A stretch of 64,000 nucleotides of DNA from Bifidobacterium moraviense (GTDB lineage: Bacteria; Actinomycetota; Actinomycetes; Actinomycetales; Bifidobacteriaceae). The position numbers and the translations under genes were made by a program. The stretch spans positions 434,001-498,000 of the forward strand of contig NZ_JAAIIH010000001.1 of NCBI RefSeq assembly GCF_012932365.1. The letters run 5' to 3'. The notes beneath the pieces are model-generated. The model was not told the DNA's origin. It did no database searches and saw only the letters and a program-made list of their open reading frames with translations. Positions 31,678 through 54,537 of this stretch are shown in pieces (positions within the stretch are counted from its first letter, which is position 1; every line of letters starts with the position of its first letter).

Positions 31678-31685
31678 CCGGAGAG

Positions 31686-31758
<73 letters not shown>

Positions 31759-31807
31759 ATATTCAATTATCAACCGTCCGAACCGTTGCCGACCCGACCG
31801 GGTGAAG

Positions 31808-31880
<73 letters not shown>

Positions 31881-31929
31881 ATATTCAGTTATCAACCGTC
31901 CGAACCGTTGCCGACCCGATCGGGTGAAG

Positions 31930-32002
<73 letters not shown>

Positions 32003-53979: not shown

Positions 53980-54120
53980 GATGATCCCCAATCGCCCGAA
54001 GCCGTTCCTGTGATCCATGATGGCAGGAGACCCGGCGCCGCGGACGGCGGGGATGCGATGTCCACGACATGTCCACCGCAGGCACTTCCCGTCTCCGCGC
54101 GAACCGGGGGCTAGACCCGT

Positions 54121-54273
54121 CGCACAAGATTTTCGCAGCTTCATCTTGTGCGGCGGGCCGTTGTTCATCCGCACATGAACAACGGCGGAATGAAGCCGAT
54201 TCCCGGCAATGCTGATGTGCGATTCCGTTCGGGTTTCGGGTCACAAGATGAGCCCTGCGAAATCTTGTGACCC
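54121..54273. repeat. Triple-hairpin element with inverted terminal copies
   Basis: Three perfect dyads in 153 bases. Dyad 1: CGCACAAGAT-N12-ATCTTGTGCG (54121-54152). Dyad 2: CCGTTGTTCAT-N6-ATGAACAACGG (54158-54185). Dyad 3: GGGTCACAAGAT-N12-ATCTTGTGACCC (54238-54273). Dyad 3 read on the other strand is a near copy of dyad 1, including a related 12-base loop, so the whole is an inverted repeat of palindromes. The 354-base stretch from the DUF1287 gene to the tRNA-Ala genes otherwise holds only the tRNA terminator. Confidence 0.8.
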
Positions 54274-54290
54274 CGGATTCGAAGGCACGG

Positions 54291-54326: not shown

Positions 54327-54333
54327 GTGATTG

Positions 54334-54406
54334 TGGAGCTAAGGGGATTCGAACCCCTGACCCTCTCCATGCCATGGAGATGCGCTACCAGCTGCGCCAT
54401 AGCCCC
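54334..54406 (-). tRNA. tRNA-Ala (anticodon GGC), second in transcript
   Basis: A 73-base cloverleaf with acceptor GGGGCTA/TAGCTCC and discriminator A. The G-U wobble expected at position 3-70 of tRNA-Ala is visible. Anticodon stem TCTCC/GGAGA, loop ATGGCAT (GGC), T arm with GGTTCGAATCC. CCA is not encoded. Confidence 0.96.
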
Positions 54407-54464
54407 GTGCTTGACTTGTTGACTTGGTCGCCGCGACGAACGCGAACGCGTCCCGCGACTTCCG

Positions 54465-54537
54465 TGGAGCTAAGGGGATTCGAACCCCTGACCCTCTCCA
54501 TGCCATGGAGATGCGCTACCAGCTGCGCCATAGCCCC
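54465..54537 (-). tRNA. tRNA-Ala (anticodon GGC), first in transcript
   Basis: Identical in sequence to the following tRNA-Ala gene, from which it is separated by a 58-base spacer. It lies 25 bases after its -10 box. All arms are intact; CCA is not encoded. Confidence 0.96.

Follow-up and report, generated by a model that had tools for sequence, protein, structure and literature searches.

The twin-hairpin palindromes that lie between a DUF1287 gene and the tRNA-Ala genes are one copy of a dispersed repeat family found across the genus Bifidobacterium. A pair of palindromes had been noticed in the sequence-only reading of this DNA, and the pair is real: in the window (the whole stretch of DNA analysed, 64,000 nucleotides) CACAAGAT-N12-ATCTTGTG is present at 54123-54150 and 54242-54269, with no further match and a chance expectation of 0 (100 shuffles). 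The two 28-mers are in inverted orientation, 119 nt apart start to start, and the gap between them is 91 nt rather than the 85 bases given at first. They had also been described as near reverse-complement copies of each other, loops included. The 28-mers are 75% complementary, and loop-to-loop complementarity of the two arms is seen in the host genome, G000 (shuffle p = 0.007), but was not supported in any other arm type or group tested; kissing loops between arms were rejected as a feature of the family.

The whole element of the window occupies 162 nt (54115..54276), and its sense strand is the minus strand, on which the covariance model matches with 150.6 bits versus 90.8 on the plus strand. 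The following parts are all on the minus strand. Arm 1, the palindrome GGGTCACAAGAT-N12-ATCTTGTGACCC at 54238..54273, was delimited by a perfect 12-bp stem and by alignment. Two copies of a genus-wide spacer motif, CGMACA, are located at 54226..54231 (CGAACG in the window copy) and, 10 bp from the first, at 54216..54221 (CGCACA). An inner inverted repeat, GCCGTTGTTCAT-N6-ATGAACAACGGC at 54157..54186, occupies the position of the conserved catGTTCAnnCGcACAtGG motif. It is the palindrome previously seen between the hairpins, with perfect (100% complementary) arms of 12 bp, not 11 (54157-54168 and 54175-54186). Arm 2, CACAAGAT-N12-ATCTTGTG at 54116..54157, has a 15-bp stem that is 93% complementary. 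The arm stems of the window copy reach 12-15 bp at 93-100% complementarity, and the folding energy of the element RNA is well below that of shuffled sequences (z about -6.0).

The initial statement that no gene, terminator or tRNA explains the palindromes has to be amended in part. The intrinsic terminator of tRNA-Ala (54326-54303, minus strand) does adjoin the element, yet lies outside it, the window copy being situated beyond this terminator. Around the window element only the two tRNA-Ala genes and their terminator were recognised. Rfam matches above the gathering score were limited to tRNAs in the window and were absent from 20 loci of relatives, and assignment of the element to an Rfam family was rejected. 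Tandem tRNA genes of the window comprise three tRNA-Asn(GTT) genes at 31685-32002 and two tRNA-Ala(GGC) genes at 54333-54537.

A search of the whole host genome for further arms, as had been suggested from the sequence, revealed 20 exact arms, including eight pairs at exactly 119 nt. The covariance model gave 13 matches, of which 12 are clear copies of a 162-bp element and one, at C4:21805, is decayed. The 12 copies can be aligned over 162 nt despite strongly diverged spacers and loops, and consist of two palindromic arms, GGGTCACAAGAT-N12-ATCTTGTGACCC, set a constant 119 nt apart, with a poorly conserved spacer between them. The family was detected in 43 of 112 Bifidobacterium genomes with an earlier covariance model (E up to 0.1) and in 46, about 40% of these genomes, with a second model built from 43 diverse copies (E up to 0.001). 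The exact host stem was found in none of 111 congeners. No family match was obtained in other genera of the order, in a sample of 396 genomes with the best seven candidates per genome scored, a procedure that could miss weak or rare copies. Phage, plasmid and viral collections contained no relative of the element, and exact-stem matches in unrelated taxa were isolated single arms only, taken as chance. No description of such a Bifidobacterium family was found in the open-access literature; subscription papers may contain one. In one relative (L167, G066:C23:21727-25872) three copies are crowded within 4.2 kb, and the near identity of two of their spacers suggests local duplication.

The consensus order is arm 1 (GGTTCACGnnAT, N10-12 and the reverse complement), GGAAACCGCACAnnAnCGCACAt, a variable middle that sometimes forms a further hairpin, catGTTCAnnCGcACAtGG and arm 2. 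Of 83 copies, 80 match the model over 158-163 nt. At least one CGMACA-like motif is carried by 77 of the 83 (9.2 in shuffles), and 50 have a pair of such motifs at 9-10 bp spacing (0.06 in shuffles); the motifs occur across genomes with quite different arms. Pairing within the arms, the conservation of which had been put forward as a check, is conserved across the genus: 94.4% of cells are paired in the local stems, and both sides have changed at 23 of 26 pairs. Long-range pairing of one arm with the other was rejected as a slightly worse fit (91.5% of cells).

Half-sites of the arms are nearly uniform inside most genomes and different between species, even at orthologous sites. The CACAAGAT half-site is the type of the host genome; CACGATTT is found in G043, G111, G097 and G058, CCCGGGAT in G010, G066, G047, G075 and G005, CCCGATTT/C in G072 and G071, and CACAGGAT in G056. 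The uniformity is not universal, the arms of G009 being mixed. Half-site identity is 0.87 within versus 0.66 between genomes, and spacer identity is 0.62 versus 0.58. Where orthologous copies share the CCCGGGAT arm, identity is 97.3% for half-sites, 85.1% for spacers, 68.9% for loops and 70.3% for flanks; the associated p-values are optimistic, since members of one group yield non-independent pairs. Solo arms at orthologous loci of G058 and G071 show a compensated difference, each matching the arm type of its own genome, and at one convergent locus the full copy of G072 and the solo arm of G058 each carry their own genome's type. In a DUF1287 tree (a weak one, with many unresolved forks and one mis-extracted row) G009 and G111 group with the host, yet they carry other arms. 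Arms that follow each genome's own type are predicted by co-evolution with a trans-acting reader, and these comparisons suggest that the arms co-evolve with a putative protein recognising them.

The median distance of the copies from a stop codon is 13 nt, and they often lie where two genes converge; 105 gene 3' ends and 58 gene 5' ends adjoin the 83 copies. Gene calls came from a simple rule on GC content by codon position, so that single stop-codon distances are approximate. There is no orientation bias relative to genes, and either arm may face the gene. The proposal that the palindromes serve a regulator as clustered sites upstream of DUF1287 was not borne out: the element adjoins a dozen unrelated genes, mostly just past their stop codons, and G009 keeps the synteny of DUF1287 and tRNA genes without a copy. 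At L090 and L094 of the host, L181 of G009 and L175 of G111 the upstream reading frame continues into arm 1, where a TGA terminates it, so that the gene takes its C-terminus and stop codon from the element.

Presence and absence of copies were compared between species. At the window locus of G009, DUF1287 and both tRNA-Ala genes are retained and the element is absent, but the rest of the intergenic region is unalignable and hence is not the clean empty site that had been sought. The same G009 region, between DUF1287 and tRNA-Ala (L239:2438-2575), contains a different long hairpin pair, ACTGGATTCGCTCAATCC-N16-GGATTGAGCGAATCCAGT and a near copy, whose core 12-mer is absent from all other loci compared. 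One host copy is common to G009 by descent (spacer 86%); another orthologous intergenic region contains unrelated copies in opposite orientation. Inversion of the spacer was considered for G000.L091/G009.L184 and G000.L089/G111.L173, where orientation differs, and was rejected because similarity between the spacers does not exceed background; from this comparison independent insertion appears likelier. Solo arms were found in G010, G058, G071 and G004. The check for target site duplications revealed none at the copy borders (mean longest border direct repeat 4.16 versus 3.98 permuted), and, apart from the palindromic ends of the arms, no offset of direct repeats is conspicuous.

Judging from sequence comparison, we consider it somewhat better than an even bet (probability about 0.55) that the family is a REPIN/BIME-like non-autonomous interspersed element with arms read by a putative co-evolving non-RAYT protein. 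The two palindromic arms would be paired recognition sites, comprising four half-sites of about 12 bp, for a trans-acting sequence-specific protein. The specificity of this putative protein would shift between species, and all dispersed arms would shift along. Copies would arise by rare insertion just past stop codons, where harm is least, and would then be inherited vertically, half-sites being maintained while loops and spacer drift; some copies would shrink to solo arms. The protein may mobilise the element, perhaps by recognising a hairpin in single-stranded DNA. Binding of the arms by a protein is itself inferred, as are such mobilisation, any effect on neighbouring transcripts or chromosome organisation and any role in the host. 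Points against this explanation are that a partner protein was not found beside the copies and that the arms of G009 are mixed; mobility is not proven, because there is neither a target duplication nor a clean empty site. The arms could also be conserved for a role that is only structural or regulatory and does not involve mobility.

REPINs consist of inverted palindromic units around a diverse spacer, occur as single units as well, are species-specific and co-evolve with a partner (PMC8049555, PMC2817692). The Bifidobacterium element resembles the RAYT-associated REP, BIME and REPIN sequences of E. coli, Pseudomonas and Stenotrophomonas in having two palindromes in inverted orientation with a diverse spacer between them, in occurring also as single units, in lying outside genes and past their ends, and in having species-specific units. 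To this extent the REP/BIME-like character suspected at the outset is supported, by dispersed paired palindromes, solo arms, location after genes and presence/absence between species; it does not extend to a RAYT or a REP tag. The RAYT domain Y1_Tnp (PF01797) has 0 matches in G000, and among 112 congeners the 7 that carry it do not include an element-rich genome. The unpaired GTAG or CGTC tag (PMC3733652) is also lacking: inside the borders of the 83 copies GTAG occurs in 4 and CGTC in 17, and the CGTC letters of the host sit in the paired stem flank. Further differences are the 10-12 nt loops, the 83-91 nt spacer with conserved motifs and the copy number. REPINs usually exceed 100 copies per genome, compared with 13 in G000 and at least about a dozen to a few dozen in genomes (for relatives, among the best 26 candidates per genome with both strands counted, so that larger numbers are possible). 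The element works like REP/BIME/REPIN sequences but lacks the RAYT and tag that define them.

The CGTC-tagged and untagged REP-like families (PMC3733652) are likewise small dispersed palindromes with no known dedicated transposase, whereas the Bifidobacterium element is a fixed twin-arm unit with species-specific arms. Actinobacteria and Bifidobacterium are not mentioned in that survey. The mobile integrase cassette (MIC) of Bifidobacterium longum, or RIT, combines a palindrome with inverted-repeat ends, probably in the same genus, but the published MIC palindrome TTAAACCGACATCGGTTTAA (PMC2430713) occurs in none of the 327 loci compared. This reading was rejected, as G000 also contains no integrase trio (seven scattered integrases, no run of three).

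We propose tentatively, at somewhat less than an even chance, a RAYT-independent, genus-confined REPIN-like system with two layers of recognition, in which species-specific arms would change in concert at every locus, spacer motifs would stay constant across the genus, and the protein would be an undescribed one. REP-type palindromes are usually explained by RAYT, and here the same outward design is met in an actinobacterial genus without it. If true, bacteria would have a new way of coming by dispersed palindromes. Among close relatives the arms visibly follow a partner that is itself unseen, and because the arm types are varied, that partner can be found through comparative genomics and pull-down. 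One can thus test in Bifidobacterium what keeps dispersed palindromes in place and whether their hosts gain from them.

An unlikely alternative is that the copies are immobile sites of a co-evolving host DNA-binding protein (nucleoid-associated, chromosome-organising or a global regulator), copy-number differences reflecting loss and duplication instead of transposition. The maintenance of half-sites in vertically inherited copies, the dyad symmetry without orientation bias and the lack of target duplications are all consistent with it, as are mismatches that show no strand preference (G-T 44 versus A-C 31, p = 0.17). However, at about 160 bp, with a fixed architecture and internal motifs, the element is large for a binding site, regulator sites are not usually placed past stop codons, and presence/absence together with the unrelated copies in one orthologous intergenic region suggests gain.

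It is improbable that the element acts at the RNA level, as 3' untranslated hairpins affecting mRNA stability or Rho-dependent or bidirectional termination. Transcript ends at GC-rich stem-loops outside the intrinsic-terminator class were reported in B. breve (PMC5746004), which would agree with such a role, as would placement past stop codons, often between convergent genes, and strong hairpins with compensatory changes. Yet primary sequence is fixed within a genome beyond what pairing demands, orientation bias is lacking, and the window copy lies past the tRNA terminator. A T-rich tail past arm 2 was found in 1 of 83 copies only, and intrinsic terminators were rejected on this ground.

Least likely is a MITE, as also suggested at the outset, that is, a non-autonomous element in decay that derives from a classical transposon or a tyrosine-recombinase element: fixed length, inverted ends, dispersed intergenic copies and arms of about 34 bp, which may resemble recombinase core sites in size, would suit it, but target duplications are missing, G000 has no integrase trio, no autonomous element with the same ends was found among the G000 exact arms or the listed G043 arms (draft assemblies could hide one), and dead remnants would not hold half-sites at 97% while spacers drift.

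No gene recurs as a partner beside the 83 copies or in 12 wider regions. A phage-type integrase gene at G000:C1:554145-554738, close to copy L087, probably belongs to an integrated element and is not the partner. For one integrase, the best bit score among the matches listed was to a Bifidobacterium phage. A GH51 neighbour has its closest PDB match in 2y2w, which we take to be from B. longum.
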